Shown piece by piece: positions 23,831 through 57,400 of a DNA stretch of 64,000 bases. Source of the stretch: Bugulina stolonifera (Eukaryota > Bryozoa > Gymnolaemata > Cheilostomatida > Bugulidae); NCBI GenBank assembly GCA_935421135.1, contig OW285196.1, positions 14,691,001 through 14,755,000 of the forward strand, in the 5' to 3' direction. The translations under genes were made by a program, and so were the position numbers. How positions within the stretch are numbered: the stretch's first letter is position 1; the number at the start of each line of letters is the position of its first letter. A model generated the notes under the pieces. That model ran no database searches. It was not told the DNA's origin and saw nothing but the letters and a program-made list of their open reading frames with translations.

Positions 23831-24346
23831 ATGGCGGTGGTATACAACTATGAAAGCATGAAGAATCAGTACCCTACAGCTGACTATGAAAATATTGGGA
23901 CCAGAGCCATAGTTTGCAGCAAGTGTGGACATAAGTTTGAGAACGCTGCCTATGAAGGCAAATTCTCTGACGCTGATGAGGATTTTGTGTTTTACTATGG
24001 TTTTGCGAAGTCGGACTTTGAATGTCTATTGGAAGATCCGAAGAGGTATGCTGATGGCCGTCGGAGAAAGTCTTTGATCAAGAAAGTCACTCCACTAGTC
24101 TACTTATTTATGATTGATGAGCTTCCTGAACCCATATGTACATTGTGCCTCGGGAAGCCAAAACCAGAAGAAAAGAGTGACAGAATCAATGAGAGTGTTC
24201 TGCTGAGATTTTGCATCAAGTTGTTGGACAAGGCATTGGTGATAACCAAACCTGGAGCAGACCAGTGTTTCTACAATCTTAGCCATCCGAAAGGGGGTCC
24301 ACCATACACTTCATGGAGAAACCCACTGCGAGTGAAGTGTGCATAT
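23831..24346 (+). pseudogene. CxxC family gene, copy A, 5' part (interrupted)
   Basis: The first 172 codons of the array gene, starting MAVVYNYESMKNQYPTADY in the same ATG context (AAGCACAATGG) as copies B and C. The CSKC and CTLC pairs are present. The frame is broken in the third CxxC region by the transposon at 24347. Continuation past the junction would add about 48 element-encoded residues and then stop. Copy A is closer to copy C than to B. With the element disregarded, the two parts add up to 330 codons like copy C and have no other stop, so the interruption is recent. Confidence 0.8.
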
Positions 24347-25134
24347 GTGACCCCTGCTATCAGAATCAGACATCGGGAGGTACCCAAAGATTTTGAGATA
24401 TGTATGTTTTCAGATATAGAAATTTATGAGGATTTCAAATCTGTTTTCCTTTTTATTCTAGCACCAACGGTTCAATTTTTATCAGGATAATACTGGGTCC
24501 ATATCTGTCGATTTTCATAAAAAGGCGAACTGAGAAAATCTGGTTTAAAGTTTTCGAACCAATAATTTATTGTTTACACTATTCAGAACTTAGCAACGGG
24601 CATATCTAATTGACTTACATTGCTAGTTTTTACTGACTAGGGGTAAGAATGTGTGAGGAATCTGATGAAATAACTAAAAACAATGTAAAAACCATATCTT
24701 GTGTCCCATGGCCACTTAAACAAGAGATACTGATATCGGATTTTCGACAAAAACAGTGAAAATGAACTTGTGCACCAATTGCGATGGACAGGCTGCATTA
24801 ACATAAATTTTAATACAGATTTCCATGCAAGTGAAATAGAAGATACTGCACATCTTGTAACAAGTTAACAAAATGGTCTCTCATATGTGGGTAGCCCTGA
24901 GAAGGGTCTTTGAGGTAGGTAGGTTAGAACTATCCGGATTCCGCCATTCTGGTGAAATAGACCAAATTATGAACTTCATTGAGTTGTAGTCTTTCCATAG
25001 TCCTTCTATTGCGAGATCAGATGGTAGCACCTTAACATCTGTTTTCTTGAATCCTGTTGAGAGTATGTTGTGTATTAATAATTTTGACAGTAAAAAAATA
25101 AGACAAACAAAAACTTAAGCGTAGCAGATGTAGT

Positions 25135-25849: not shown

Positions 25850-26909
25850 CTACAAATAGTCATGGATACCTTGGACATGAATTGTTTTACTTAATAACTT
25901 AAGATAAATACATGTACATGTAGATACTCACTTATGTGAGTTTTCAACCTATGTTATTGATTCTAATGCAATGTACATGTGATGCACATTGGTTCCTCAA
26001 ATAGGATAAAGAGGGTAGGATATGTGGTAAGTCACATGTATGTGTAGTACACATGGAGATTGCAGCAGAACTAATTTTGAAGTATGAGCTAAACTTTATC
26101 TTTACTAGTGAAATAGCCTCAGCCTATAATTCAGGTCATAATTCATACTAACCATTTGATTGATGAAATAGTTGCTCACCTTCATAATGGAAATCTTTAC
26201 AAAGTATTTTCTCTTCTTGGCCTTGTGGGAATTAGTAGAAGCAGACAGAATTGACTATTGTGGGAGAGATTTTGCTTAATAAATTTTAGGAGATCTAGTA
26301 ATGGCTGGTCAAGAGCTGTGAGCACATCTCTCACAGATTGAATCATTTCAACAGTAAAACTGGTAATGCTTGGCTTGGTAATAAGCTTGTGCATCCTGAA
26401 ATCACTCAAAAGTCTTTAACAACAGGAATATTGATAATTATAATTTTGAAGAATTTTCACAATTTTTACGCTATTATTATCAATATCTCCCAGTATATCA
26501 GGGCCATCCTGGGCCTCAGGTGTGTGTAGCCACACCTAAATTAATGGCATAAAGCTAGTTTCTTTCCTCTCCTTTACTTTCTTGGTCAGAAAGGTCCTCA
26601 GCAAGATCCATAAAGTAACAATATTGATTTAAATAATCAAAGCGAGTAAAATCCTGGTCCCACCATGTGCCTCCATGATAAGTCACGTGACTCCATTAGC
26701 AACGACTTTGAACGAGGTTTGCACCTATTTATGCTGTACTGATTGCTAATTGGTTAGTAGAAAGTGAAAGAGCATGCTTCAATTAGTATAATAACATTGA
26801 AAGCTGAGAATCAGCATGGTAAGTTTCAGTTTAGCTTTTTGGACTTTGAGCGCTTATTGCGTGGAAGTCAATTCACCGCGCGATGTCCGATTCTGATAGC
26901 AGGGGTCAC

Positions 26910-27390
26910 ATATTGTCCTTTAGAAGCTCCTTCAGGTGGACATACAGATTCTGTTACACCCACAAAGCTGGAGTACAAATATTTCTATCGGTATAGTGAT
27001 ACTGTAATTACGGCTAAAGTTGGCTTGACTCTTGAAACTAACTTCGACAAAACAGATGATCTACCAGAATACCATGCCCCTGCTGGTACACCTGTAATAA
27101 ACATGCTATGCTATGGAGAACATGAAGATGGTATGTATTTCTGCATTCGCCACCTTCCAAGACAGACACTGCTAAACATCCTTGATGAGCTGACACATAA
27201 TTCTCTAATTCATGATCTCAAAACCAGCCAAAACTTCAGATATACTGGGCAAGCTACTGGTAAAAGGAAAACTTTGCCTTCTTGCCTTTCAAGATCCGAA
27301 TCACCAGAACCCCCAAAAGTACCCCGAACACCAGTAAGGATGGCAGCAAGGACGTCGACCAGAACAATGTCTTCATCTTCTCAAAAGTGA
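26910..27390 (+). pseudogene. CxxC family gene, copy A, 3' part
   Basis: Continues copy A after the transposon and its target duplication, reading YCPLEAPSGGHTDSVTP onward to the basic Ser/Thr tail and TGA at 27388-27390. It includes the second half of the third CxxC motif and the conserved LPEYHAPAGTPV block. The frame is intact. A truncated product could start only inside the element. Confidence 0.75.
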
Positions 27391-28504: not shown

Positions 28505-30313
28505 CTAGCTGCCATATCTGACAGGTGGCTTGGAGACCCTGCCGGATCTTGTTATAGTGTGTGGACCAGAGTGGGGTTGGGTTTGTACACTAGGGGTATT
28601 ATTGGTGCTGTTACTAACAACTTGTGAGCTAGCGGGTTGGGATCTTTGGCTAGTCTCTAAATTACTGGGAGGGCTAACAGGTATAGCTGACTGGGATGGC
28701 TGTACACTAACTTTCTCACTAGAACTGGTATTGACTGGTTTACGTAGCCTAAGGTATTTCTGATTTCTTCTAAACACCCTGCCATCATTCAACTGTATAT
28801 AGAAACTTCTAGGAGTTTGAGCTACATGTAGCTCAACAATCTCGCCCTCAATCCAATTCCTATGACTTAGCTTCAACCAAACTTTTAAACCAACATAAAA
28901 CTGCACTGCTGGCTTGCCTGTACTACTGTTAAAGGTAGTTCTCGCCTGGCGCTTCATAAAAATGTCCTCAATCTCATTCAAGTTAAGGTGCTTGTGTTTC
29001 AGTTGTGCTGGTGCACAATGTAAGCCACCTCTTAGATTTCTAGCTTGCAAGAGAACTGCTGGTGATGGTAAATTGTCACCAATAGGAGTAGAACGAAGGG
29101 TGAATAACACATCAAACAGAGACTGGTTGGACTCAAAAGCTTTCTGCAAACTGTTCTTTATAGTTTGGTTCATCCTCTCGGCTAATCCATTTGACTGTGA
29201 ATAATATGGACTGGTGGTGACATGCTTAATTTCATTATCCTCCATAAAGCATTTGAATTCATAGGATGTGAAACATGTCGCATTGTCAGAGATGAGAATC
29301 TCTGGCTTCCCAAAGTCTAGGAATTGTCTTCTCAACAAAGAAATCATTTCGCTTGATCTGCCTGTCTTGAGCTCATTGCAACAGGGCCATTTAGAATATC
29401 TATCAACTGTCACCAGATATTGAATACCATTCAACTCAAAAACGTCCATGCTGACAGACTGCATGGGATATTCAGGGATCTCAAAATATTCAAGATTAGT
29501 GGATGCATTGGCCCTCATGTTCTCTTGGCATATTCCACAACCATCGACTAAGTCCTTGATCTGGCTATGGTAACCTGGCCAGTAGACTGCACATTTGGCT
29601 CTTTCAATACACTTACTGGTGCCTAGGTGACCAGCATGTATCAGGTTTGCCACTTCTTTCTGCATTGAAACAGGAATTACAATTTGATTACCTCTCAATA
29701 TCAAACCATCATAAACAGTAAGGTCATGTCTCACTGTCCAATAGGGTTTCAAAATATCTAGACAAAATTTCTTCTGCATAGGCCAACCGTCCTCAATGTG
29801 AGAGATCAATATCTGCATAGTAGGGTCAGATTTTACAGCTGTTTGCAATCTACCCTTAAAGGTTGGACCCGTCAAAATTCCCTGTGTGACTGCTTGAACC
29901 TGTTCAAAATCATTGTTTTGCAACAACTCTGCACCATCACAACTCTGTTCGGCTAGGAATGCACGAGACAAAGTATCAGCCAATACAAGCTCTTTTCCTG
30001 GTTTGTATACTAACGAGTAATCATATATTTGATTTCGCAACCTCATTCTCATCAATCTAGGACTCAAGTCATTCAGACCTTTCTTCACAATGGACAACAG
30101 AGGAAGATGATCTGTCTCCACTATGACATGCTGGCCATAAATGTACTGGTGAAACCTCCGCAGGCCAAATTGAACGGCTAAGAACTCTTTTTCAATCTGA
30201 GCATATCGACGCTGAGTTTCTGTTAATGCACAACTGGCATATTCTACTGGTTGTCCTTCTTGCAGAATGGTAGCTCCCATACCATGCTGACTAGCATCAA
30301 CTGACAATGTCAA
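28505..30313 (-). CDS. pol: Ty3/gypsy pol, RNase H and integrase part
   Basis: This frame of 602 codons carries the downstream half of pol. RNase H comes first (around residues 1-110, with SVDAS and ETDHLPL). The integrase zinc-binding H2C2 region follows (HAGHLG ... CGIC), then a DDE core whose acidic residues are all visible in SMDVFEL, ISDNATCF and GLAERMN. A C-terminal domain and a Ser/Pro-rich tail end in RYGS. The ATG is only the first Met in the fragment. In an intact relative this region would continue directly from reverse transcriptase. Here it is out of frame with the upstream ORF because of the deletion near 30421. Confidence 0.85.
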   Translation of the reverse strand: MTLSVDASQHGMGATILQEGQPVEYASCALTETQRRYAQIEKEFLAVQFGLRRFHQYIYGQHVIVETDHLPLLSIVKKGLNDLSPRLMRMRLRNQIYDYSLVYKPGKELVLADTLSRAFLAEQSCDGAELLQNNDFEQVQAVTQGILTGPTFKGRLQTAVKSDPTMQILISHIEDGWPMQKKFCLDILKPYWTVRHDLTVYDGLILRGNQIVIPVSMQKEVANLIHAGHLGTSKCIERAKCAVYWPGYHSQIKDLVDGCGICQENMRANASTNLEYFEIPEYPMQSVSMDVFELNGIQYLVTVDRYSKWPCCNELKTGRSSEMISLLRRQFLDFGKPEILISDNATCFTSYEFKCFMEDNEIKHVTTSPYYSQSNGLAERMNQTIKNSLQKAFESNQSLFDVLFTLRSTPIGDNLPSPAVLLQARNLRGGLHCAPAQLKHKHLNLNEIEDIFMKRQARTTFNSSTGKPAVQFYVGLKVWLKLSHRNWIEGEIVELHVAQTPRSFYIQLNDGRVFRRNQKYLRLRKPVNTSSSEKVSVQPSQSAIPVSPPSNLETSQRSQPASSQVVSNSTNNTPSVQTQPHSGPHTITRSGRVSKPPVRYGS

Positions 30314-30395
30314 TGGTAGTAGGGGATCAAAAATCCTAAGAGTGGGACATGAGGCTATGACTGATTTTAGATTTTCAAAAGACTGAGCATGTATG

Positions 30396-32411
30396 TCAGT
30401 CCAAGACCACTCGGGGTTGAGGCATATTAACTACAGCCTCTACTTTGGCCGGATCGGCTTGGATTTTCCCCTCACTGATAATGTGCCCAAGGTATTTAAG
30501 TTCAGCCTGCCTAAACTTACACTTGGCTTCATTTAGCTTTAGATTGCTCTCTCTACACCTCTCAAGCACTGCCTTGAGGATAGCATCATGCTCCGTCTCT
30601 GTAGGAGCGTGTATCAAAATGTCATCTACATAGCATTCTACACCTGGGATATCTTCGAACAACTCTGTCACTGTTCTGGAGAATATTTCTGGGCTAGAGG
30701 AGATACCATATGGAAGACGTAAAAATCTATACCGACCAAAAGGCGTGGCAAACGTGGTCAACAAACTGCTCTCATGATCTAGCTCTATCTGCATGAAGCC
30801 AGATGTACAATCAAGTGTAGTGAACACCCTAGATTGACCCAATTTAGCAAAAATCTCAGTTGGAGTGGGTAGAGCATAATGTTCTCTCTTCAGATTTTTA
30901 TTCAACTCCGAAGGATCAAGACAAATTCTGAGAGAACCATTGGGTTTCAACACGTTTACAATGGGATGCACCCAATCAGTAGCCTGCCTTACTTTGGTTA
31001 TCGTGCCTTGGGACACTATGTGATCAAGCGTCTCTCTAAGCTTATCACGGAGACGGAAAGGTACTCTTCGTGCGCTATGAATGACAGGTTTAGGATCAGA
31101 TTTCAACTGTAGAGCATGCCTGCATGGCAACTTGCCAAGACCTTGAAACACATCTGTAAAATCTCTAGCTACCAAATCAGACACCGAATCTGTGACATTA
31201 ACTAATCCTAGTTCCTTACAACTGGGCCGCCCTAATAATGTGGTTTGGCCTGAGCATGTGTCTACTATAACAAATTCTATTGAGTAGAATTTTTTGTGTA
31301 CTTCCACCAGCAGTGTTGTCCTACCTAATACACTTAGTCTGTGACCACTAAATGTCACAAGTGCTTTAGTATGTTTATCAAAAGAAACTGTGCTACATGA
31401 TTTTCTACACAAAAATTCAAAAGTTTTCTTAGGCATAACATTGCATGATGCTCCAGTATCTACTTTCAATTGCAGTGGTAGGTCATTACAAAAAGCATTA
31501 ATACACCATTCATTAGTAGTATTAGGTTTAGTATTTACTGCAAATGTCACTTCATGATCATTCTGCATCTCTGTTAGTTCATTGGTGTTGGTCTTAGAAG
31601 TACTAACTGTCTTACCTGAGCTTCGGCAAGCTCTAGCGAAGTGGTTTGGCTTATGGCAACTTTTACAAACCTTGCCATATGCTGGGCATTGTCCTCTGGG
31701 ATGATCAGTCTTACAGTATTTGCAGTTCTTAACTAAGCCATTGTTAGTGCTTGTAGTCTGTTGTGTAGATTTCTTATCAGGCTTCTGGTAGGTCTGCTTT
31801 CGAGTATGCTGGGTATGCTGCTGTTGTATTGCGTGAACGGACTTCTGGGCTTCGGGTTTCATATCTGACATGTATTGTTTTGTGGCTTCTGCTCTGCGAC
31901 AAAGTTGTATTACTTTATCTAAGTCTGGGTTACCATCCAAGTTAAAAATGTCCTCACGTACTGTTTGTGAAGTTATACCTGCGACAATTCTGTCCATCAA
32001 AGCATTATCTTTTTCATCTTCATGGAAGTTGCAGGTCGTTATGAGACACCTCAGTGCGGTTAGAAAGTCATCAAATGATTCCGTTTGTTGCTGTATTCTA
32101 CTGTGAAATTTAAATCGTTCGAACACTGTTTTTACCTGGGGTGCGAAGTGTGCTGTAAATTTTCCTTTCACGACTGCGACATCCTTTTTCTGATCTACTG
32201 TAAGGTCAAAGGTTCTGTATATCTCCTGACCTTGTGCTCCTAGCAGTGTCAATAGTGTCGCTACTTGTACCTCCCCCGACTTAGCACTCTTCTCCGTTGC
32301 TACCATGTAGTAGTCGAACTGTTCTAACCATTTCGTCCAACTGCGTGAATTCTCACTGGGGTTACCAGTAGAACTAATAAAGTTACCGGGCGGGCGTAAA
32401 CCTTCCGCCAT
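30396..32411 (-). CDS. gag-pol: Ty3/gypsy gag, protease and reverse transcriptase
   Basis: 671 codons. An N-terminal capsid-like region (residues 1-200) is followed by two CCHC-type zinc knuckles (about 230-262, CKYC...C and CKSCHKPNHFARAC), the aspartic protease motif VDTGA (about 315) and reverse transcriptase with YVDD at about 593. The frame stops just after the RT thumb. The connection segment normally found between RT and RNase H is missing, roughly 30 residues by comparison with family architecture, and the reading frame shifts there. Gag and pol lie in one frame, as in several animal Ty3/gypsy lineages. Confidence 0.88.
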   Translation of the reverse strand: MAEGLRPPGNFISSTGNPSENSRSWTKWLEQFDYYMVATEKSAKSGEVQVATLLTLLGAQGQEIYRTFDLTVDQKKDVAVVKGKFTAHFAPQVKTVFERFKFHSRIQQQTESFDDFLTALRCLITTCNFHEDEKDNALMDRIVAGITSQTVREDIFNLDGNPDLDKVIQLCRRAEATKQYMSDMKPEAQKSVHAIQQQHTQHTRKQTYQKPDKKSTQQTTSTNNGLVKNCKYCKTDHPRGQCPAYGKVCKSCHKPNHFARACRSSGKTVSTSKTNTNELTEMQNDHEVTFAVNTKPNTTNEWCINAFCNDLPLQLKVDTGASCNVMPKKTFEFLCRKSCSTVSFDKHTKALVTFSGHRLSVLGRTTLLVEVHKKFYSIEFVIVDTCSGQTTLLGRPSCKELGLVNVTDSVSDLVARDFTDVFQGLGKLPCRHALQLKSDPKPVIHSARRVPFRLRDKLRETLDHIVSQGTITKVRQATDWVHPIVNVLKPNGSLRICLDPSELNKNLKREHYALPTPTEIFAKLGQSRVFTTLDCTSGFMQIELDHESSLLTTFATPFGRYRFLRLPYGISSSPEIFSRTVTELFEDIPGVECYVDDILIHAPTETEHDAILKAVLERCRESNLKLNEAKCKFRQAELKYLGHIISEGKIQADPAKVEAVVNMPQPRVVLD

Positions 32412-32481
32412 TGTTAATTCTTATATTATAGTCCGTTAATACTGTAATCCATGTGAACCAGCTCCCCTCTTCCTGACACCA

Positions 32482-32713: not shown

Positions 32714-35266
32714 CCATAATTTTCTAAAATTAATTGTTGATGATTAATTAACATTTTAACCAAGAATAAATGATTAACGCAAAAAGAAAAACTGGGAACT
32801 TTCATTACAGAGAGGCAGCAACAAGGAAGAGATTCAAGTTTACCAGACTGGTGCATTTCAACACACCCTTTTATTTGATTGCTCAAATGAAAATTTTGCA
32901 ATGATAAGAAAATAACTAAAACCGCTGTACGCCAAGTGATCAAAAATTAATAGAGCCGTCATAAAAGTACATATATGTATGCAATGTCAATGTAATGTAC
33001 ATGTAGTGCTTAAAGAAGTACTATGCAGTATTACATATATCATTATGAGCTGCAATTTTTATTTGACACTGCTTCTATTATAAATGATTGTATAATGTAT
33101 TGAATTTACTAAAATGCTAGGCATATATTTATACACTTTAGTCGCTATCAGGGGGTGAAGTCCCAAGTGCCATATTGCTGTGAAAACGATTACACCTTCA
33201 CCTTATTCAACCTGCAGTGATAGTAAAATATACTTGTTAGCTTATGCCCACCAGAAGGAATTGTCTTCTCAATATCACAACTACACAGGAGAGTACAACT
33301 CCTCAAGTAGCTTTCAACCAGAATTCTTAAGCTCATACATGTAGCTTTTAAGTATACACAAATTTCAACCCTAAGTCACAAGTCGGTTCATGACATCAGA
33401 ATTTAAGCAGCAATATTTTACTATTTTAATATTCGTGACTGGAGTGAAATTATACTGTATCAACTAGAACATACAAAATAAGATTATGTTCTCTCATCTG
33501 TACGTGTAGACTTGTCTGTAGATTGATTCACTATCAATACATGTATAACTAGATGTAGATGTAAATACTGGGGCTGTTTGAGGCAGGTTAAATGTAGATA
33601 GAATGGCAGTGCAAACCATTTTCGTTTTGTACCTAGTATATAATTGATCTAGTGAGATTAGTGTCTAGAGATCAATAGTACATAACACAATCACCTACTG
33701 GGTTGAAGTTATCCAATAGGATTTCTGTACGAGTCTTAGACTTAGAGCATCAGTGAGTTTTGCCATACTGTTAAATTCTGTCTTGTTCAGACTATACCTT
33801 GACTTGACAGACCTACATGAAATGATTCAGACATGTTACTTGTCTCAGACTACGAGGATATGTTACATGTATATATTATTGTTAGCTTCATCAACGCAGC
33901 ATACATATTCATAATTGCAGTTAATAGCTGTGCTACCCACTCAATATCCAACAGAAACATTCATAATAATTTATTGCCTTTGTGACCTCTTGGGCAGACC
34001 CTGGTCACAAATAAAAATCACAAGATAATTGTTCACCCAAACGGCTAATTGGCCTGGAAGTTTGCTCGGCCGGCCAAAACCCCCATAGCTCATCAGCACA
34101 CCTGACCTCTTCCAACAAAAATGACAATTTTGAATTTGACCTAAGCTGGTGTGTTCGCCACACTGTGGTGGATGCATGCGAAAAATATTTTAACAAAGTA
34201 GTGTCTGTCTGCAATTTCGGTCGAGAAGACACCATGTATTACTGAATTTTGATAACGCACTAGACATTATTTTGTCTGGTTTGGTATGTTTTGATCTCAC
34301 CAGCTAGCATCAGATTAGCTGTGTAATGTAAACATACAAGCTACCAGAAAAAGTTAGAAAGACAGTAAATAACAGTAGTGAAAGAAACTACAACAGTGTA
34401 CATAGTAGGTGGCTAATGTATGCAGAGCTACATGTAGGTAGCTGAATATAGCTGAAGGATTCTGTTAGTTTAATCCTACAAAGCAAATAGCCCATTTAGT
34501 ACTACAAATAGGTAGAACAGTTATCGGGTTGACTGCATTCCCTACTACACTCTTATAGGAAGGACACCCTGCAGAGCATAAAGTAAGTGATAATAATGTT
34601 ATCTCTAGTAAAATTTCTACTTGTAAAAGATAAGTTAGTGAGTACAAATGTTGTGTGAGATAATTGGCTTTATCTTACATGTGCATGCGCTGTGTAGGAA
34701 AGTACAATCATAATAATTATTAACAGCATCATCCTGTGTTTTGTACTTTCCTCACCGAGGGACATTTCGAAAAAGACAGTTCACAACAGGACGTTTCACA
34801 ACCAGACAGTTCTAGATTGGACAGTTCGGAACTGTGTGTAGATTATATTTAGAAGAACACAATTCACATATAACCAATTTTAGTTAATTAATCTAATTAT
34901 CTAAATAAAAAAAATTAATATCAAAAATAAAAATTAGTTGAAATCTGGTAGTTGGGGTTTGAGGTTGGGCATTTCGAACTGTCCGGTGTTGAACTGTCCA
35001 CCTTCGAAACGCCCTGTTTCAAACCGTCTTTTTCGAACAGTCGCACATTCGGCAAATGCACCTGTGCCAGAAACAATTAGAGCATTGTACTGTATTTTCA
35101 ATGTATATAATATAGACCCATAATTTGGTCTCAAAGTGTCCACCTTGAACATAATGTGAATTTACATGGAGCACTCCCAAATAGAGATTGAGTCTTGACA
35201 TTCTTGACAAATTGCTTCTTTTTTATCAGCATCTGTTTGTCAATCTTGTAGCATCATAGAAGCACA
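32714..35266. other. Junction of array units A and B; upstream region of copy B
   Basis: 32714-33860 continues the downstream flank of unit A and 34250-35266 is the upstream flank of copy B. 33990-34205 is a dispersed repeat also found inverted at 60841-61015. No coding exon is supported. A conserved AAAGTAAGTGATAATAATG string near 34580 (also near 38785) may be the donor of a 5' UTR exon, with acceptor at TTGTAG or CATAG just before the ATG. Confidence 0.5.
34765..35040. mobile_element. MITE-like foldback in the copy B upstream region
   Basis: About 70-bp imperfect inverted arms (34765-34835 and 34965-35040) carry repeated GGACAGTTC and TTTCGAA motifs around an AT-rich centre. It is absent from the matching place upstream of copy C. 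Confidence 0.55.
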
Positions 35267-36250
35267 ATGGCGGTGATATATAACTATGAAAGCATGAAGA
35301 ATCAGTACCCTACAGCTGACTATGTGGATATTGGCACCAGAGCCATAGCCTGCAGCAAGTGTGGACATGAGTTTGAGAACGTTGCCCATGAAGGCAAATT
35401 CGCTGACGCTGATGAGAATTTTATGTTCTACTATGGCTTTGCAAACTCTCACTTTGAATGTCTACTGGAAAATCCAAAAAGATTTGCCGATGGCCGTCTG
35501 AGAAAATCTTTGATAAAGAAAGATACTCCACTAGTCTATTTATTTATGATTCATGAGCTTCCTGAACCCATATGTACATTGTGCCCCGGGAAGCCAAAAC
35601 CAGAAGAAAAGAGTGACAGAATCAATGAGAGTGTGCTGCTGAGATTTTGCATCAAGTTGTTGGACAAGGCATTGGTGATAACCAAGCCTGGAGCTAACCA
35701 GTGTTTCTACAATCTTAGTCATCCAAAAGGAGGTCCACCATACACCTCATGGAAGAACCCACTGCGAGTGAAGTGTGTATATTGTCCTTTACATTCTCCT
35801 CTTGGTGCACATACTGATTCAGTTACACCCATACAAATGGAGTACAGTTACTTCTATCGGTTTACTGATACCGCGATTACTGCTAGAGTTGGCATAACCC
35901 CTGAAACTACCTTCGAGAAAACAGATCATCTACCAGAATATCATGCTCCTGCTGGTATACCTGTAATAACTATGTTAGTTTTTGGAGATCTTGAAGATCG
36001 ATTGTACTTCTGCGTCCACCACGCTCCAAGAAAGGCATTAATAAACCTTCTAGATCAATTGTTACACAACTTTGTAGTTCGTGACACCAGAACTGGCCTT
36101 TATTTCAGATACAAAGAGCAGGCTGCTGTTAAAAGAAAAACTTTGACTTCCTGTGCTGAATCACCAGAGCGTTCAAAAATACCCCGAACACCAGTAAAGG
36201 AGGCAACTAGGGCTTCGACCAGAACAGCCTCTTCATCTTCACAAAGATGA
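35267..36250 (+). CDS. CxxC family protein, copy B (327 aa, unknown function)
   Basis: An intronless frame starting MAVIYNYESMKNQYPTADY. Visible features are three cysteine pairs (CSKC near residue 29, CTLC near 105, CVYC near 170) that could bind zinc, an aromatic FYYGFA segment, a charged central region (RINESVLLRFCIKLLDKAL), the LPEYHAPAG block and a basic Ser/Thr-rich tail with KRKTL, possibly a nuclear signal. There is no signal peptide or TM segment, so it is probably cytosolic or nuclear. It is one of three copies in direct tandem with near-identical N-termini and diverged C-terminal halves. I recognise no family. The start is supported by the conserved AAGCACAATGG context in all copies. 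Confidence 0.85.
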   Translation: MAVIYNYESMKNQYPTADYVDIGTRAIACSKCGHEFENVAHEGKFADADENFMFYYGFANSHFECLLENPKRFADGRLRKSLIKKDTPLVYLFMIHELPEPICTLCPGKPKPEEKSDRINESVLLRFCIKLLDKALVITKPGANQCFYNLSHPKGGPPYTSWKNPLRVKCVYCPLHSPLGAHTDSVTPIQMEYSYFYRFTDTAITARVGITPETTFEKTDHLPEYHAPAGIPVITMLVFGDLEDRLYFCVHHAPRKALINLLDQLLHNFVVRDTRTGLYFRYKEQAAVKRKTLTSCAESPERSKIPRTPVKEATRASTRTASSSSQR

Positions 36251-39200: not shown

Positions 39201-39390
39201 CAATAAATACCATTACCAGGCACACTAAAGTTAGCGATATTATATTATTATTGAATAAAATAACTTGTTATGACTGCAGATTGCTATTTATAAAGCTTGC
39301 ACGGTGCAGTATTCGAATACGCCTAATGTCTTGTTCATAAGCATCTGTTTGGCAACTCTCTTGTTTGTCTTGTAGTATTATAGAAGCACA
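36251..39390. other. Flank between copies B and C
   Basis: Downstream flank of unit B and upstream flank of unit C. A roughly 130-bp segment (GAAGAAATTGTCTTCTCAATATCACAAC type) occurs twice, at 37230 and 37855, around the 11-bp minisatellite. No coding exon is supported. Confidence 0.5.
37606..37748 (+). repeat. 11-bp minisatellite
   Basis: About 13 copies of GGGACCTATCT with one- or two-base variants. The open frame through it is a by-product of the repeat. Confidence 0.9.
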
Positions 39391-40383
39391 ATGGCGGTGG
39401 TGTACAACTATGAAAGCATGAAGAATCAGTACCCTACAGCTGACTATGAAAATATTGGGACCAGAGCCATAGTTTGCAGCAAGTGTGGACATAAGTTTGA
39501 GAACGCTGCCTATGAAGGCAAATTCTCTGACGCCGATATAGAATTTGTGTTCTACTACGGCTTCGCGAAGTCAGACTTTGAATGTCTATTGGAAGAACCA
39601 AAGAGGTTTTCTGACGGCCGTCGAAGAAAGTCTTTGATAAAGAAAGTTACTCCACTAGTCTATTTATTTATGATTGATGAGCTTCCTGAACCCATATGTA
39701 CATTGTGCCTCGGGAAGCCAAAGCCAGAAGACGAAAGTGACAGAATCAATGAGAGCGTTCTGCTGAGATTTTGCATCAAGTTGTTGGACAAGGCATTGGT
39801 GATAACCAAACCTGGAGCAGACCAGTGTTTCTACAATCTTAGTCATCCAAAAGAGGGTCCACCATACACAGCATGGAGAAACCCACTGCGAGTGAAGTGT
39901 TCATATTGTCCTTTAGAAGCTCCTTCAGGTGGACATACAGATTCAGTTACACCCGCAAAGCTGGAGTACAGTTACTTCTATCGGTTTAGTGATGCCGCCA
40001 TTACTGCTAAAGATGGCTATCCAACTGATGGAGACCTCGACAAAACAGATGATCTACCAGAATATCATGCCCCTGCTGGTACACCTGTAATAAGCATGCT
40101 ATGTTTTGGGGACCATGAAGATGGTATTTATTTCTGCATCCGGCACCTTCCAATTAGAATATTGCATAGCATCCTTGATAAGTTCTCAAATAATTTTTTA
40201 ATTCAAGACCTCAAAACCGGCTGTAACTTCAGATATAACTCACAGGCTGCTGGTAAAATGAAGACAGTGTTCTCTTGTTTTGCAAGGTCGAGCTCTCCAG
40301 AGCCACCCAAACAACTCCGAACACCTGTAAGACAACCACGGAGGACTTCGTCCAGACAAGGATCATCATCTTCACAAAAGTGA
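39391..40383 (+). CDS. CxxC family protein, copy C (330 aa, unknown function)
   Basis: Intact third member of the array, intronless, starting MAVVYNYESMKNQ in the AAGCACAATGG context. It is nearly identical to copy A in the first 170 residues and diverges towards the C-terminus. CSKC, CTLC and CSYC are conserved, as are GGHTDSVTP and LPEYHAPAGTPV. The basic tail ends TSSRQGSSSSQK. The strong match of the first half against a variable C-terminal third suggests gene conversion or constraint at the N-terminal side. No domain is recognised with certainty. Paired CxxC motifs about 70 residues apart fit a zinc-binding fold. Confidence 0.85.
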   Translation: MAVVYNYESMKNQYPTADYENIGTRAIVCSKCGHKFENAAYEGKFSDADIEFVFYYGFAKSDFECLLEEPKRFSDGRRRKSLIKKVTPLVYLFMIDELPEPICTLCLGKPKPEDESDRINESVLLRFCIKLLDKALVITKPGADQCFYNLSHPKEGPPYTAWRNPLRVKCSYCPLEAPSGGHTDSVTPAKLEYSYFYRFSDAAITAKDGYPTDGDLDKTDDLPEYHAPAGTPVISMLCFGDHEDGIYFCIRHLPIRILHSILDKFSNNFLIQDLKTGCNFRYNSQAAGKMKTVFSCFARSSSPEPPKQLRTPVRQPRRTSSRQGSSSSQK

Positions 40384-41795: not shown

Positions 41796-44093
41796 TCAGT
41801 GTAGTGCACAACCACTACTACCACTGTACATCTGATAATACTCAGGTGTCACTATTAACCATGCTCTCTGTAGAAGCAGTGAATCAACCAACGCATTGAG
41901 AAATCCCATCCCTGCCATATTGTCCTTGACAACTTTTTCCTTTTCGCTGGCAGGAGTTCCGTCACTGGCCCACTCTTCTACTGAAGAAGAGCTACCACCC
42001 TGTGCACCCCGCACAGTACTCGCTGGTGTCTCACTAGGAAGCACCATTCTCTGCTGGGCCTGGGGCCCCCTCTCCTCTGCTGGGGCAGAGTCGCTAGCCT
42101 GTGCACCCTGCACAGTCCTTGCTGAAAGCACCACAGGTGTCGCGCTGGGAGACACCTCTTCTTGCACTACTGTGGTGGCTGCAGTGTTGGGCACCACAGT
42201 GGGTGTTGTCTCATGGGGAGACACCACCTTACTCTGAGAGCTAGAGGGGTTCAAGGAACCTGAACTAACACTGGGACGCACTGGTGTTACAGGAGCTGTA
42301 GTAACACCAGACCCGGAACCTTGGGCAAACTGGTTAGCAGCCAGTTCGAGGTTCCTGATGGCTTCCCTGACCGGTTCACCATCATCGTACTCTTTCTGAA
42401 GAGCAGCTCTTTCTCGAGCTATCTCACTCAGACCGAGTTCATACTGGCTCCTAAATGCCAATTCTCTCTCATTGAGAGCCGTACTTCTTCTCGAGAAGTC
42501 GTCAGTAGTCATTGCTGAGCTACTACGTAATCCACTTAAGAAAGTGGAAACCTGAGCAAGGAGAGAAGAGTTTGCACTCATCTCCTTGTCATGGGCCCTC
42601 GGTGCACAAGACACAAGGGGGTCCATGCCCAACCCCTTGGGTGATAGTCCCTCAGCGCGTGTCGGACCAGAAGAGGAGCGTTTCCTCTTCTTGCTATCGG
42701 AGCAACTGGCTCTGCCATAATGCCACTTCTTGCTAATATTATCTATTGACAATTTACAGGTAGGGTCCTGTAACATTGTCTCACATGCTTCCTCCTCTCT
42801 ACAATCAACGTAGGGTGAGGAGGCTATGACAGAACCTATAAATGTTTCTGTCTCACTAGAATCTATTACATCTACACTACTACAAGTAGGATTGACTATA
42901 TTAGATTTATTCTCTAGTTTGCTAGAGAATCTGACTTTTTTTACTCTAGAAGGACTCCATTGGTCCCCTCTAGACCGTTGGCACTGCCTAGACGAACTTG
43001 GAGAGTCCTTGAGATGGCGTTTGTTCCGCCTGGACTGGCAGTCCTTGGTGATGTGACCTTTTCTGTTACATACGTAGCAGGTGACCGTAGGACACTCTCT
43101 GGTATGATGTCCATGCTTACGACAATGATAGCACCGAGAGTCCTCTGAGTTATACCTCCTACAAGGTGAGTACTTTAAAGGACTGTCGTTGCTAGAATCC
43201 CTACGATGGTGGGATTCCCTACTCTCCTCAATACTGCTTCTAGGTCTATACCTAGAATACCTTCTAGAATTGTAACGGCTGTAGGAGCTGTTGCTAGTAT
43301 TGCTATCTCTACTAGTACTTCTAGGTCTATACTTATGACTAGATCTACGTCTAGTTACATTGCCTACAGATGGTTCATCTGATTCATTAATGTTATTTTT
43401 AATTACATTACAATAGCTCGGTTTATTGGAGCTTACATTACCCACTTCCTGTTTAATCACTCTATCAGTACTAGGGGTGTGCTTAAACTGCTTCAGGAGT
43501 GCATCCTCTTTCCTGGCAGTGTCTCTTGCTTTAAGCAAGGCTGTCAAGTCAGCCCATGTGAGTTCAGCTCGCTGGTAAAGTATTTGCCTAAGCGAGCTTT
43601 CACGCAAACCATTAACTGCGACCGAAACAGCGAGGCGTTGTCTATGCACTTCGCCTTGATCGCCAAAATCCAAATCCCTACTCAGTCGTTCTACTCTGAG
43701 TAGGTACATATGAAAATCTTCATCACATGCTTGTGAAGCAGTGACGAATCTACCATGTCTTAAAAAGAAACTATCTTTTTGCTCAAAGTGATCTGTTAAC
43801 ACTTTAAGTGCTCTATCATAGGCATCATCTGCGTTGTCTCGCAGATTGAAGCCTGAGGCAGTGAGGACAGCTTTGCCATCTCTCCCTGCCGCGCTAAGTA
43901 GGGCCAGTAGTTTAGTCCTACCCCTAAACCTATTCACTCTTGCCTCATTGGGTCCTTCTTGACCCATATTAAAGGTGGCTACTTCCACCACTATTTCGAA
44001 ATCTGTTAGCCATTCAGACCAACAGCCACTTACGTCATTCCCTACTATTTTTAATGTAGGGAAGCTATTCAGATCAATACCAGCAGCAGCCAT
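41796..44093 (-). CDS. gag: Gag-like polyprotein of the gag-only element
   Basis: 765 codons. It starts MAAAGIDLNSFP about 600 nt after the 5' LTR. Residues 1-225 look like a retrotransposon capsid region (WSEWLTDFEIVVEVA ... TWADLTALLKARD). A Ser/Arg-rich segment (about 235-315) follows. Two CCHC zinc knuckles are at about 319-352 (CYHCRKHGHHTREC and CYVCNRKGHITKDC). The long C-terminal half is Ser/Thr/Pro-rich and low in complexity. It probably packages element RNA. Gag with an RS-like spacer next to the zinc knuckles is unusual. The C-terminal half has no pol domain and may be an acquired sequence. Confidence 0.85.
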   Translation of the reverse strand: MAAAGIDLNSFPTLKIVGNDVSGCWSEWLTDFEIVVEVATFNMGQEGPNEARVNRFRGRTKLLALLSAAGRDGKAVLTASGFNLRDNADDAYDRALKVLTDHFEQKDSFFLRHGRFVTASQACDEDFHMYLLRVERLSRDLDFGDQGEVHRQRLAVSVAVNGLRESSLRQILYQRAELTWADLTALLKARDTARKEDALLKQFKHTPSTDRVIKQEVGNVSSNKPSYCNVIKNNINESDEPSVGNVTRRRSSHKYRPRSTSRDSNTSNSSYSRYNSRRYSRYRPRSSIEESRESHHRRDSSNDSPLKYSPCRRYNSEDSRCYHCRKHGHHTRECPTVTCYVCNRKGHITKDCQSRRNKRHLKDSPSSSRQCQRSRGDQWSPSRVKKVRFSSKLENKSNIVNPTCSSVDVIDSSETETFIGSVIASSPYVDCREEEACETMLQDPTCKLSIDNISKKWHYGRASCSDSKKRKRSSSGPTRAEGLSPKGLGMDPLVSCAPRAHDKEMSANSSLLAQVSTFLSGLRSSSAMTTDDFSRRSTALNERELAFRSQYELGLSEIARERAALQKEYDDGEPVREAIRNLELAANQFAQGSGSGVTTAPVTPVRPSVSSGSLNPSSSQSKVVSPHETTPTVVPNTAATTVVQEEVSPSATPVVLSARTVQGAQASDSAPAEERGPQAQQRMVLPSETPASTVRGAQGGSSSSVEEWASDGTPASEKEKVVKDNMAGMGFLNALVDSLLLQRAWLIVTPEYYQMYSGSSGCALH

Positions 44094-44708
44094 TTTAGCT
44101 CTGCTGTACTACACTCACGTAGCTACTCTACTTTCTACTCTACTTTCAATTCAATACCCAACTCTACTCTACTCTAACTCTACTTCACTTCTACACTAAC
44201 TCTACTCTAACTCTCCACTAAATCTACTCTAACTCTCCACTAACTCTACTCTAACTCTCCTCTAACTCTCCACTAACTCTACTCTAACTCTACACTAACA
44301 CTCACTTTCCCTTTCTCAACTCTCGCGCAGTCACGTGCCTCTGGTGTGACTACGCTACTACTCTCTTCACTCACGTAGCCACGCTAAACTGACGTGGTTA
44401 CGCTACGGAAACACTTTACTCTCACGTAGCCACGGCACTCTCGTGTGGCTACGCTACAAAAACTCTCTACTCTACCCTCACGTAGTCACGTTGCATTCAC
44501 GTAACTACGCTACCCCTCACGTAGTGCAGTCAAGGACTAGTGAGTCACTAAGTCCTTAAGGCTACACTACGCTACTCACTCACAGTCACTCCTCCTTGAG
44601 TGACTGCTACTCTTCCCCCGAAGGGTGCTCTTGATTATCTCAGTTGTAACCAGTAATACCTTTCAGTTTAACAATAATAATAAAAAAATTATCTTGCCAA
44701 CTGTGCCA
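44094..44708 (-). other. Leader of the gag-only element with two repeat families
   Basis: The 5' untranslated leader between the primer-binding site and gag. 44108-44310 is a pyrimidine-rich array of CTCTACTCTAA-type units. 44320-44600 carries repeated CACGTAGCCACG/CGTGGTTACG motifs, partly palindromic, which could fold as a packaging or dimerisation signal. Confidence 0.6.
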
Positions 44709-47003: not shown

Positions 47004-50000
47004 TTAGAGCAAGGATTCATAGTTGTGATCTGCATTGGCCTCGGCTGATTGGATTAAATCAATATATTCTGACGGGGTTGGATTCCAATAATCTTCTACG
47101 TCACAATCTTCATTCGTGGCAAGTCTTAAAGGAGTTGGTAGATTAGACTGTTGTTTCTGTAACTCCCTGTTGCTAGTGGGTAATTGTGGGACTGGGGGAA
47201 GTGGTCTACGTATGACTGTAAGTGTAAGAGACTAAAATGAATGAACAAAAAAACAGAATGTCCTGCTACCAATACCTCTTGAATTGAATGTCTCTCAACA
47301 ATACTCATTGGTAAAGATAAATGCATGAATTTCTATATAAATATTCAATATTGTTTACCACATACACATAAATGCATATAAGTTCTCAAAACAGAAAATC
47401 TAATACTCGCTGACAATATAAGCAGTATTTACCTCTATTCTTCCAGCGACAGCAGAAAGCGATGACAATGACTATGATGACAATGAGCACTGCAGATCCG
47501 GCTAACGAACCAATGAAAAGAGGTTCACTCTGTAGTGGAATTTTTGTGGTTGATTCCTCAGGTTGACTGGCAGTGAGTGATTCTTCACGAAAATCTTTAT
47601 TTAAACTCCAAGTAATGTACCAGGAGATAATGACATTCTTACCTGCCAAACAATTTCATCATGCGTCACTAACATCTATTAAAACTAACGTAGCCCAAAC
47701 CTAATCGTTGGTCAGAAACTATAATCAAAGATGTCTTCAGGTGAAGAAACATAAATATGGTTGTGTGCTAGTTTATTGGTAGATGTATAAACAAACCGTT
47801 AAACTGTGGTTGCTATTTACCATGCAATAGTATCTACTATTTGTGTGACCATCACGTACTGATAGTTAGTACAGAACAGCATTTACAGACATGGAACTGG
47901 TTGCTTTGACTTCCTTATCAACACGCTAATCAAATGATGAAACCTTCAACAACTTTATTGCTAATCAAGTAAACAGAATGCACTACACTGTCAGTATTAC
48001 ATGTGTAATTCCTATGTTCTTCTGGCTACTAGTCAGTTCACTTACCTATCCCATTCTCCACTTCACAATCAATTCTCTCTGTAGTACTTGTAAGCAAAGG
48101 GGTTAAAACAAGACTACTTGAACTAACATTATTTATTACACCTCTTCTCTTCCATTTGAATGTAGTGGGTTCTGGGTTTCCTGCTACATATTCCGAGCAG
48201 CTCAGCTTGAAACTTGTAAGATTTCTCAGCAGATGCAGTGATATCTCGTGCTCCGCGACAACTTCTAAATCTAAACAGAGTATTTTGGTTTCTGATATAC
48301 AACTCAATTTAGAATACAGTATTGCTGTATGAGATATTGTTTATTCAAGCTTGCTGTCCTTTACTCACATTTGGGAACAACGAGTCTGTATTTATGTGTA
48401 TTCCCGCCTTTCCAGTACTGGTGCTTAGTATCTGTGCAGGAAACGTTTATACCGTCACGATCTTTCCTTTCAGGGGTGTACCTGTTACTGATGGCATCTT
48501 TCCCATTTATACCTGAAAACATGGTTTGTGCAATGATGTTATTATCAACAGACTAACAAGTTAAAATTTTTACTAGTGGACAGCTACAACATGCAATAAA
48601 CTTACCATGCTGTGCTAATTGTGTTGCTGCAGGATGTCGAGGAAAAATCTATATGGTGCATGTTTAGCAAACTTACTATAAACAAATCTAGAAGTAGGAT
48701 GGCCTTCTTCAGAGGTACAGGTAAATGAAAACTCCATTCCTTCTACAGGTTCTTTAGGGTCAATAGACATCTCTAATCTTCTTGGTGCAACTTAAAAATA
48801 TTGAATGTACTCAAAAGCATGCTTGTTTAATACATACATGTACACGTACGCGTACATGTACATGTACATGTACATGTACATGTACATGTACATGTAGGTG
48901 AAAGTTATTTTAAACCCATATTTCTCAAAAAAATACACAATAGTTCCAATATTTAGGTTGATGCAGAATTTTGTCTTGTCAACTGCAGTATAAGCAACAC
49001 AGTCATACAATTTGTTCAATCTGGGTAAAATAAGGTATAAATACTGAAAAACAATCAATTTAAACTACTATAATACAATACATGGAATCACGATAGTTAG
49101 ATAGTTAGATAGTTATAACCCCTTTAGCTACATGTATGTAGCATTCAGCCAAACAATCGCTACATATAAAACACCTTAACCATGTCCTTGTCCATTAGTA
49201 GTATTATGTCTCTTTTATCTAATGATTGCTATATATTTCATTCCAGTATTATAGCATGAAACTAATAGTAATAAAAGAGATAAAACAGTGAGATTCTACC
49301 AAATATTACTATACATCTAATTTTCATATCAACTGCAATGCCATACCTAAATTTATTATGCAAGCATTGTTAGAACAAGTTGTACAGCGTAATCTTTGAT
49401 ATATTTCATATTTTTATTTACCTTTGAGATTATCAAGATAGATATAGCCCGAATTTAAAATGCGACGTAGGTATAAGCCAACAAAACCTTTTGCTTCACA
49501 GTAAAATTTTCCATCTAATGATGCATTTGTGAAAATTACTCTTAGTTCAATTGTGAATCCTTCTTTTCTTCCAATATTGTTGCACGTATTGTTAGACACA
49601 GTTGAAAGTTGACGTAGTCCACCCAGTTGTCCCAAGTTACAAGAGAGTATTTTATGCCAGTTTTCATCAACACTCTCGCATCCATAAGCAGCTTTATTTA
49701 GTCCACCAGCACAGGCAGATCTCCAATTATTTCCAACTTTTCCTGGCTGGTAATAAATCCCAAATTCTGTTAGATTGGTAAAACCCTGGGTTGTACAGGT
49801 AAACAGAATTTGTTGACCTAGATAGAAATCTGTAACAGTCGGCGAGGAATATCCAAAACGCACTTGTGGGGAACCTAAAAAAGAAGCTCATGAAGTTCAA
49901 AAAGATATTATATGAACTCAAAAATGAAAAGTGCAGCCCTCCAGTCTACAGTCAAACTTGTACTGTGCTCGCAAGTTTAGCACCTCTTCATTATGGTACA

Positions 50001-51083
50001 CAGTAAGACAAGGGAAGCTACACATTGTTTATCCTTGATAGAAATATGGTTATAGGGTGAAATACTGCCATTATGTAACTAATTTTATTTCATTTTGTTT
50101 TTATTTTGTTACTGCCGAGTCACTTGACCATCCTATTTAACCTCAAAAATACGATATTTGTATGTGCGACAGGAGCTGGACTCTAAAGGGTATGCTACAC
50201 GGACGCACAACTTTTACGAATATCACAAGTCTAAAAAAATGGAAAAAGTTGTTGGGTGTTACACAGAAGTTGCGTTTTTATTGTAGACAAAAGAAGTGTT
50301 CTACTCAATAATTCAACTTAAGGCAAGAGTAGATAAATCTAAAGAGTTAATGTAGCCTGTAAACCCACAAAATTAATGATAATTGGGGGTTGCGATACAT
50401 TTACATTCAATCTCCTTGGCTTCTATTTTTGAATCAAGGCAGAGGTGGGTCTTTAACGTGCGTGTTTTTTTATGACGACATTACACTGGACCTATTGTAG
50501 CAGGTTCAGTAGTTCAGCAATGTTTAGGGAGCCAGGCTAGCTGAAAGCTTTTTGCCAGAAATGACACAACTGATGTTTGAACTCACAACCCTGGCACCTT
50601 ACATACCTACATGCTGTGCATATTTAATATCTTAATCCTGCGTGTAACTGCTTTAATCCAATCAAAATCATTTGTATCAGCAGTGTAGACATTGTGTTGG
50701 TATGTTCTGCTGCATCAGATTGTTTAATGCGTTGTTTCTTACAATCAATGTCAACCTCCCTCAAAATTTCATGGTAGTAGACATTTCTATACTGCTGAAG
50801 CTCAAGTTATCATACCTTGCAAAGTAAACCAATATTTTAAGACATAATTACCTTCTCTGAGGGTAACTTTTAATTACTGTATAATCAACACTAACAAAGC
50901 CGTTTAAGCAAGAGATGTTTGTCTGCATTTACTAAATAATATATATATATATATAATATATACTTACATGTATAATATATAAAATATATGCTGTATATAC
51001 AATGTATACTAACCAGCTGCATTGGGTGACAGGAGAGAGAAGACTGCATGTATAATTATGAATATCTCCAAACTCATGGCCAT
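47004..51083 (-). CDS. Three-Ig single-pass receptor with ITAM-like tail
   Basis: Seven exons: 51083-51014, 49874-49422, 48790-48677, 48512-48369, 48270-48046, 47642-47433 and 47215-47004. All junctions are phase 1 and total 1428 nt, 475 aa. Residues 1-23 are a signal peptide. Residues 24-174 are a V-like Ig domain (FTC ... DGKFYC, several N-glycosylation sites). 175-260 are an Ig domain split over two exons (FTCTSEEG ... NVSC). 261-335 are a third Ig domain (LSC ... FKWKR ... IDC). A TM helix spans about 377-398, followed by CCRWKNR. The tail holds the SH3 ligand RPLPPVP (409-415), YWNP (448), YIDL (456) and YESL (471). YIDL-x11-YESL fits the ITAM consensus YxxL-x(6-12)-YxxL. Likely a plasma-membrane receptor coupled to Src/Syk-type kinases; ligand unknown. 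Confidence 0.88.
48840..48896. repeat. (ACATGT)n microsatellite in receptor intron
   Basis: About nine hexamers in intron 2 of the receptor gene. It explains an artefactual MYMYMY frame on the minus strand. Confidence 0.9.
49117..49308. mobile_element. Right-half copy of the 12.4-kb MITE
   Basis: Nearly identical to 12603-12786, ending CTACCAAATAT|TA. The left arm is absent. It lies in receptor intron 2, next to a short GATAGTTA repeat. Confidence 0.75.
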
Positions 51084-54455: not shown

Positions 54456-57400
54456 TTAGAACAAAGATTCATAATTGTCATCTGCATTGGCCTCGCCTGA
54501 TTGGATTAAATCAATATATTCTGACGGGGTTGGATTCAAATAATCTTCAGTATCAGGAGCTTCATTGATGACAGGACTTAAATGTGTGCGTTGGCTAGAC
54601 TGTAGCTCTCTGCGGCTGGTAGTAACGTGTGGCACAGTAGGAAGTGGTCTACGTATGACTGTAAGTTCAGTATCTTCAAAGAATGAAAAGGCAGACAGTG
54701 ATTGTATAATATTAATTAACGTCCTGCTACTCCTGGTTTAGGGGCTCTTGGAGTGAATGCATGTTAATTATGCACTTGGGTTCTACATGTTAGACGCTGA
54801 TAACTTTTTTTGCGTAAATACTGAATGCTTTTCATTGCATTAATACATAAGTTAGGCTATTATTTCTGGTTATCACATTATTTTGTGTCTTACAGTGTAG
54901 ATGATACCTTGAAACATAGTGCACATGAATCTACGTGCAATTACAATATTGTTTAATACTGTTGTGTATGTATAAGTTATCATGACTTAGAACGCAATAT
55001 TACACAACAGTATATATGTACATGTACATGTAGGAGTAATATTTACCTCTATTTTTCCATCGGCAGCAAACAGATCCAGCTAGCACGACAATGAGAATTT
55101 GTTTTCTCTGTGATGCATTCCTAGTTGTAGATTCTTCAGGTTGACTGACAGTGAAGGACTCTTGAAGGAAATCTTTATTTATACTCCAGGTAATGTGCCA
55201 GGAAATAACAACTGCTTTGCCTGCCAAATATGCTCACCATGCAATACTAAAAATTATTACAAATAATGCAGCCAGAGCACAATATTTAGACAACTCATAA
55301 AAATTTCAGTTGTATTTCCAGCTGTATAATGCCTTCTTACCCAACTAAACTTACTTTAATTACGCCATCAGATTCAGAAACCGACAAACTTGCCATTATT
55401 TTGATATACACAAGCCCTCTGTGTAGAGGCAATTTAACATGGTTTGAGTGTTGGTCACATACTTCTAAAGAGTTAAGCATTTGCATTTGATTTGCAAACT
55501 TTTACAGCCTTATTGCTTTGACTTCCTTATCAACACACTACTCAAATGATGAAACCTTCAACAACTTTATTACTAATCAATTAAACAGAAAAGACTTTAC
55601 TGCCAGTATTACATTTGTATAATTCCTATGTACTTATGTTTACAAATCATTTCACTTACCTATCCCATTCTCCACTTCACAATCAATTCTCTCTGTAGTA
55701 CTTGTAAGCAAAGGGGTTAAAATAAGACTACTTGAACTAACATTATTTATTACACCTCTTCTCTTCCATTTAAATGTAGTGGGCTTTGGATTTCCAGCTA
55801 CATATTCCGAGCAGTTCAGCTTTAGAATTGTAAGATTTCTCAGCAGATGCATCTCAAGCTCCCCGACAATTTCTAAATCTAAATGTACACACATATTTTT
55901 GTAAATTTAACTTTTTTAGCTTTAAATGTTGTACAACTCAATTTAAAATTGCTGTGTGATAAATTGTGTGTTTATGCTCTCATGTTATTGATTACTTACA
56001 TTTTGGAACAATTTTTTTAGATTTATATGTATCTCTGCCTTTCCAGTACTGGTGCTTAATATCTGTGCAAGACACATTGAGTCCGTCACGGTCTTTTTTC
56101 ATGGGAGTGTACTTGTTAACTTTGGCATTTTTCCCATTTATAGCTGGAAGCATGGTAGGTACATGTAAAATGACGTCACTGTGGACTGACAAATTAGAAT
56201 TCCTACTAGTGGATAATTACGACACACCCAAATAATTACCAAGCTAAGCATTTCTGCATCATATCTAGGAAATTGTCATATAATATGTTTTATGTTTAGC
56301 CAACATACTATAATTATATGTAGAAGTAGGATGGCCTTCTTCAGATGTACAGGTAAATGGGAACTCCTTTCCTTCTACAGGTTCTTTGGGATCAATAGCC
56401 ATTTCCAATCTTTTTGGTTTAACTTGAAAATATAAAATGCGACCATAAGCATCTGCTTGTAGGTGGAAATTATTTTGGAGCAATCATGTCTCAAAGATCC
56501 ACAAGAGTTTTATGTTTTCAACAGCAGTATAATAGCCAAAACTAAGTTTTATAGTTTGGTAATTTTCACTGTTAATGTGGATAAAATATGAGATACTGAG
56601 AAACTGATATACTGACAAAAAAACTAACAAAATACAAATTTCATATACAATGTAAATTACATGTGCACTGTCATACTTAAATTTACGATGCAAGTATAAT
56701 ATTGTTAGACCAACTTGTGCAGTGCAATCACTCATACATTTTATATTTTATAGTTACCTTTGAGAGTGGTAAGATTGATAGATCTCGATTTTACTGGTTC
56801 AGTGTAATACCCACTATCTAGATCATAACCCCCCATTTGACAGTAAAACTTTCCATCTAGAGATGCATTTGTGAAAATTACTCTTAGTTCAATTGTGAAC
56901 CCTTCTCCCTTTCCTAAATTTTCACACAGATAGTCAGATGTGTATATAAGTTGATGTATTCCACCCAATAGCCCAATGTTGCAGGAATTCATTTTACGCC
57001 AGTATCCTGTGCTTAACCAGTTTTTTAAACGATTACATCCATAAACAGCTTTTACTAGCTCGCCAGTGCAAGCAGCACTCCAGTTATTCCCAACTTCTCC
57101 TGGCTCATAATAAATCCCAAGTTCTGTTAAACCAAGTAAACCCCCGGTTGTACACCTAAACACAATCTGTTGATCTAGGTAGATACCTGGAGCATTCGTG
57201 GACTATGACTCAAAATGAAACACCACACGGCGCGGACCTAAAATAGAAATGTATGAAATTTAGCGGTTTATTGTGCAAAATTAGGTAAATATGTCAGAAT
57301 AAAAAATACAGTTGATCTACCAAAGCTTTAGGTCGAGTAGCTCTGCCCTCAGTTTACAATCTATCTCGCACTGTATGTATAGCTTCCTCTCTCCATAATA

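Follow-up and report, generated by a model that had tools for sequence, protein, structure and literature searches.

Introduction

The oyster Crassostrea gigas has a lophotrochozoan type I receptor, CgIgIT2, with five immunoglobulin-type (Ig) domains, a single transmembrane (TM) helix and a tail described as an ITAM, for which the excerpted text of PMC11999971 reports microbe binding and ERK signalling while one title cited there calls the receptor inhibitory. In the colonial animal Hydractinia, the Alr proteins form a clustered multigene family of Ig-type receptors with ITAM, ITIM and hemITAM motifs, and 41 members are reported from the allorecognition complex (excerpts of PMC11999971 and PMC12065747). 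Similarly, the receptors encoded at fuhc in Botryllus, a colonial chordate in which the genetics of fusion is known, carry ITIM or hemITAM motifs and are described as candidate recognition receptors tied to Syk/SHP-type signalling (excerpts of PMC12065747). Among vertebrates, ITAM receptors such as FcgammaRIIA signal from their own tail. As excerpted from PMC9731471, two YxxL/I motifs 6-12 residues apart constitute the strict ITAM, the paired YxxL motifs bind the tandem SH2 domains of Syk, and YxxM sites, found in receptors such as PEAR1, bind the tandem SH2 domains of PI3K. Bryozoans are counted among the animals with historecognition in an excerpt of PMC12018476, and no bryozoan Ig receptor family was among the literature matches listed, which is weak evidence of absence.

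The window analysed here, a 64,000-nt stretch of contig C10 (14,691,001-14,755,000), comes from the cheilostome bryozoan Bugulina stolonifera, a lophotrochozoan and a small colonial marine animal. It contains a gene, termed gene A, whose predicted product resembles CgIgIT2 in being a lophotrochozoan type I receptor with Ig domains, one TM helix and an ITAM-like tail, but which has three Ig domains instead of five; the two tails are likened by description only. Homology to CgIgIT2 is not claimed because word-limited searches of 5.8 billion proteins gave no relative of the family, either with gene A (4924 candidates at E 0.001) or with a four-member profile (5873 candidates at E 0.01). Proteins of Bugula and Watersipora are present in the database searched, which leaves three explanations: confinement of the family to close relatives, omission from their annotation, or divergence beyond the reach of a search by words.

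Like Alr, the bryozoan family is clustered, on chromosomes 8 and 10 (C8 and C10), and its members bear tails with tyrosine motifs; yet no relation to Alr emerged at E 0.01 among the 5873 word-sharing candidates, a comparison made through the search and not by direct alignment of Alr sequences. Gene A shares with FcgammaRIIA the two YxxL motifs 6-12 residues apart, and four relatives of gene A share YxxM with PEAR1, but ectodomains and lineage differ, and on the bryozoan side binding is a prediction. Botryllus, by contrast, uses other receptors in a system with known fusion genetics, whereas the bryozoan family has been read from the genes of one haplotype. By its predicted architecture, the family is new but its receptors are of a known kind.

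Results

Gene A encodes a predicted Ig receptor with a strict ITAM in its tail

Gene A lies on the minus strand between 51083 and 47004. As read from the DNA, six phase-1 GT-AG introns separate its seven exons, which encode 475 residues; these comprise a signal peptide, three Ig-type domains, a single TM helix and a tyrosine-bearing tail. Exon 1 (51014..51083) supplies the ATG and the hydrophobic stretch of the signal peptide, and ends in phase 1 at the donor G/GTTAGT. Exon 2 (49422..49874, phase 1-1) encodes Ig1, a domain resembling the V type and carrying a further pair of conserved Cys; its fold is assigned with low confidence. Ig2 is split between exon 3 (48677..48790, phase 1-1) and exon 4 (48369..48512, phase 1-1; DRxG..SCxD..H..WKGGNT), both alignable in three relatives, and Ig3 is encoded by exon 5 (48046..48270). 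Exon 6 (47433..47642) contributes a stalk with a WxIxW motif and the uncharged TM helix (hydropathy 3.1); an alternative acceptor exists at 47594, and 47642 is preferred through the homology of KNVIISWYITW to the relatives. The 70-residue cytoplasmic tail is encoded by exon 7 (47004..47215), and the tail exons of relatives are homologous to it.

Of the three Ig domains, Ig3 scores above the Pfam cut-off (Ig_3, E 3e-8), and Ig1 and Ig2 are weaker. Four Cys of Ig1 are invariant in a nine-member alignment, and the four-member profile gave weak Ig matches to CD22 and CEACAM5 (E 0.0007), while an Ig1 profile returned from PDB only one chance row (E 1). The Ig/TM/tyrosine-tail architecture of the original prediction is thus borne out by a complete open model with phase-1 introns and a Pfam match for Ig3.

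The tail (same strand) carries RPLPPVP (47187..47207), YWNP (47079..47090), YIDL (47055..47066) and YESL (47010..47021), the last two being the halves of an ITAM-like pair in our motif table. The YxxL-x(6-12)-YxxL arrangement predicted earlier proved to be a strict ITAM, YIDL-x11-YESL, with Leu at both +3 positions. Such an ITAM arises in 1.7% of shuffles of the gene A tail, and its x11 gap is near the upper limit for ITAMs; the tighter x6-8 form occurs in none of the seven homologous (class 1) tails considered below. Two further motifs of the prediction held for gene A but not for its family. First, YWNP does contain the proposed YxN, but the Asn is not retained family-wide (YLTP, YLAP), so that YxxP, present in 7/7 class 1 tails, is the conserved form. 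Second, RPLPPVP does match the class I SH3-ligand consensus, but [RK]xxPxxP is found in only two of these seven tails, those of gene A and its tandem copy B.

Gene A belongs to a clustered family

The searched genome comprises 27 contigs (234,951,659 bases). Ig1 of gene A found 29 matches in it, gene A and copy B included, and Ig1 of a chromosome 8 relative found 43 rows, corresponding to 42 exons if two adjacent rows are merged. Approximately 42 Ig1-type exons are therefore distributed over chromosomes 8 (21 exons), 10 (13), 5 (6) and 6 (2); for large families such counts are minimum values. They do not translate directly into a number of genes, because adjacent exons may share one gene and some may be pseudogenes. 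The 13 exons on C10, with those of A and B among them, fall within 14.05-14.75 Mb. This genome-wide survey, together with the tandem copy, substantiates and extends the locally duplicated cluster that had been proposed from the window. Two Ig1 exons at C8:14736977 and C8:14785711, approximately 49 kb apart, have the same protein sequence, which suggests a very recent duplication on this chromosome. Two further loci, L023 and L070, gave weak matches.

We spliced three relatives by hand, M55 and M56 on C10 and M57 on C5, using a script that scanned phase-1 sites only. Such sites were found at every border needed, compatible with the exon borders of gene A, and several of these borders are ambiguous (exons 6 and 7 of M56, exon 5 of M55). 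All three relatives have the split Ig2, the WxIxW stalk and a single TM, and are 33-35% identical to gene A.

Candidate SH2 partners are encoded in the same genome

An SH2 model matched the genome 53 times, in many cases in exon pieces. One locus on C2 (L054) encodes an N-SH2, a C-SH2 and a Syk-type kinase: the top PDB matches of its tandem-SH2 stretch are Syk and ZAP-70, and its kinase stretch matched a chain labelled EGFR in the first row and Syk or ZAP-70 in the following 24. The tandem-SH2 kinase of the Syk type invoked by the original prediction is thus present in the same genome. The attribution of this DNA to a sponge or early animal has to be dropped, however, as the C2 Syk comes closest to SYK of Bugula neritina (75% identity) and to Watersipora subatra (68%), the next match falling to 50%. 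The assignment of this locus to Syk is based on its SH2 stretch and on the match to Bugula neritina.

Segments resembling the p85 inter-SH2 region adjoin SH2 matches at C1:20.638 and 20.647 Mb, in a search in which one of 14 control genomes also matched, below the cut-off. Several other loci were discarded from the roles for which they had been considered: L025 and L039 are SHP2-like and not Syk candidates (the SH2 of L025 providing the SHP2-like domain discussed below), L051 matches SHP2 and RasGAP best in PDB and not Grb2, and L030 matches p85-alpha best and not Crk. An SH2 exon at C4:14697298 (L035) has the B-cell linker protein (BLNK) as its best PDB match, a weak one (E 1.4e-7). In Botryllus, homologs of LAT and slp-76 were not found according to an excerpt of PMC12065747.

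Tails diverge across the family at conserved tyrosines

Because genome searches with single tail sequences yielded few further members, we read the tails from the sequence that follows each of 17 members, a number that counts A and B. This sample is not random: most members are from C10, and L061, L065 and L069 came from tail or TM searches. A homologous class 1 tail is present in seven members (A, B, M55, M56, M57, L061 and L065), and the remaining ten have other or unrecognised tails. L072, L073 and L083 (the last at C10:14512401-14516900) share a second tyrosine-rich class of tail with an SH3-ligand-like PP[QE]LPSR near the end, L069, L071 and L074 have tails outside class 1, and for L075, L082 and L084 the downstream DNA read gave no recognisable tail exon. 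Retroelement frames lie downstream of the Ig exons of L085 (C10:14534701-14539200).

Besides the universal YxxP, class 1 tails have YES or YER (6/7) and a Y-hydrophobic-D-L/M motif (6/7), in which the last residue is Leu in A and B and Met in M55, M57, L061 and L065. Within the distal pair the tyrosines lie 15 residues apart in four of the seven tails (A, B, M55 and M57) and 13 apart in a fifth (L061). The original prediction named a lack of conserved Tyr spacing in other members as counting against it, and the spacing is conserved. The three tail tyrosines of gene A align in M55, M57 and L061, an outcome equalled by 0/1000, 1.1% and 0.4% of 1000 realigned shuffles, respectively; for A versus M56 and A versus L065, two of the five comparisons, the alignment score was no better than that of shuffles. 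Residues at +3 differ: a distal YxxL/YxxL is confined to gene A and the decayed copy B, while the other tails have Met, Val or Ala there, and the distal motif is YVDM or YIDM in four of the five tails other than A and B. In M55 the distal pair is a double YxxM, YVDM-x11-YESM. A proximal pair, Yxx[LI] followed by Tyr at +13, is found in M56, M57 and L061 and not in A or B; M55 has Cys at its second position, and in L061 the pair is itself a strict ITAM, YTAL-x9-YTPI.

On the basis that gene A follows the Syk rule and four relatives the PI3K rule, we interpret the family as receptors with diverging effector choice. Gene A itself would be a type I Ig receptor that signals through phosphotyrosine and belongs to a diversified bryozoan family, with a tail that fits Syk where those of relatives fit PI3K, a reading that we consider somewhat probable. 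Clustering by a ligand would be followed by phosphorylation of YIDL and YESL through a Src-type kinase, which the proline-rich RPLPPVP may hold in place, and SH2 proteins could then dock on the tail. Syk from this genome would engage the YIDL/YESL pair with its tandem SH2 domains, as on a vertebrate ITAM, and YWNP may recruit a second SH2 protein. The YxxM of the four relatives would instead favour PI3K p85, and members, which have the Ig plan of the ectodomain in common, may send different signals since their tail motifs differ in this way.

The same variation at +3 could be taken to mean that the family tail chiefly docks PI3K (p85) and YxxP adaptors, gene A being a divergent member whose YxxL does not make it a Syk receptor. 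YVDM or YIDM in four of the seven class 1 tails, the double YxxM of M55, the p85 segments on C1 and the binding of YxxM receptors by the tandem-SH2 protein PI3K (excerpts of PMC9731471) are all consistent with such a role, but gene A is devoid of YxxM and has the Syk-type residue, Leu, at both +3 positions. We consider this explanation rather unlikely.

We consider it improbable that gene A is an inhibitory receptor in which SEYIDL acts as an ITIM recruiting SHP2 and not Syk. SEYIDL does match [SIVL]xYxx[LIV], the genome encodes an SHP2-like SH2 that is predicted to be a possible recruit, and two titles cited in the excerpted PMC11999971 name oyster IgIT receptors inhibitory. However, 15% of shuffles of the gene A tail match this consensus too, YESL falls outside it, and no tail other than those of gene A and copy B fits it at the distal site, the one further instance (SSYNEL in M56) being located elsewhere.

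Yxx-hydrophobic motifs are also read by AP-2, and the general sorting consensus covers YxxL, YxxM, YxxI and YxxV, all of which occur in these tails. Gene A might then be an adhesion or scavenging receptor with endocytic signals and no tyrosine-kinase pathway, but sorting alone leaves unexplained the repeated spacing of 15 or 13, an acidic residue two positions after the first distal Tyr, and the YES and YxxP motifs, and we regard this possibility as quite improbable.

The tandem copy B is probably a pseudogene

Copy B lies on the minus strand, with an Ig1 exon at 56758..57237 (genome match and A/B comparison), exon 3 at 56309..56422 (87% DNA identity to gene A), exon 4 at 56000..56143 (recognised by DNA similarity to gene A, with borders from the A/B comparison), exon 5 encoding Ig3 at 55660..55878 (91% DNA identity), exon 6 at 55047..55220 (A/B comparison) and a tail exon with YLNP and YIDL-x11-YESL at 54456..54658 (tail search and A/B comparison). 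Since its Ig1 exon contains an in-frame TAG and its exon 6 lacks 12 TM residues, copy B is probably a pseudogene. That gene A is decaying in the same manner, or that its tail exon is unused and the motifs are relics, as the lesions of copy B and the other or unrecognised tails of ten of the 17 members might suggest, is highly improbable given that the reading frame of gene A stays open for 475 codons, that its splice sites and TM are intact, and that dN/dS between A and B is 0.46.

This ratio, determined over 423 codons, indicates that the compared exons were coding for most of their divergence. In Ig1 it is 0.65 and not above 1, and positive selection on Ig1 was therefore rejected. Between A and B, four non-synonymous and two synonymous changes fall in the ITAM block (from EDYWN to the end); dS is 0.11 in this block, whereas the first half of the tail has 1.03. 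The near-identity of the ITAM blocks consequently gives no independent support and cannot serve as proof of selection, because synonymous sites are equally similar; it reflects similarity at the DNA level, probably from conversion or recent exchange.

Implications for recognition in a colonial animal

Returning to gene A as a phosphotyrosine-signalling receptor with a Syk-type tail, we infer that it may have an immune or self/non-self role. Clustered Ig receptors with ITAM- and PI3K-type tails, encoded beside a true Syk, provide concrete recognition candidates in a colonial bryozoan. A bolder proposal, to which we assign only a slim chance, is that the C8 and C10 clusters form a bryozoan recognition complex like the Alr complex of Hydractinia, in which +3 changes at the same Tyr pair would wire members to PI3K (YxxM) or Syk (YxxL) and gene A would act as a Syk-coupled activator in colony fusion or rejection. 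Should colony fusion prove to map genetically to these clusters, one signalling logic built on unrelated receptors would be common to colonial animals from three distant phyla. The conserved Tyr pair with its changing +3 residue would also offer a natural test of receptor switching between Syk and PI3K.

Other features of the window and genome

Elsewhere in the window, four plus-strand segments (23816-24490, 26761-27390, 35252-36250 and 39376-40383) are copies or part-copies of one gene whose product of approximately 335 residues begins MAVxYNYESMKNQYPTADY and has two CxxC pairs; its two full-length frames gave no Pfam match at E 0.01. Two minus-strand regions are of retroelement origin, one at 28505-32420, where 28505-30430 encodes RNase H and integrase domains and a further frame extends to 32420, and the other a gag-like frame with a zinc knuckle at 41796-44108. 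In the genome at large, COX1-like matches occur on four contigs (C26:34375-36051, C12:7199-8926, C16:2-181 and C27:11870-13210), with in-frame TGA on C27, C26 and C12 and split matches on C26 and C12, and C27 may be the mitochondrion.
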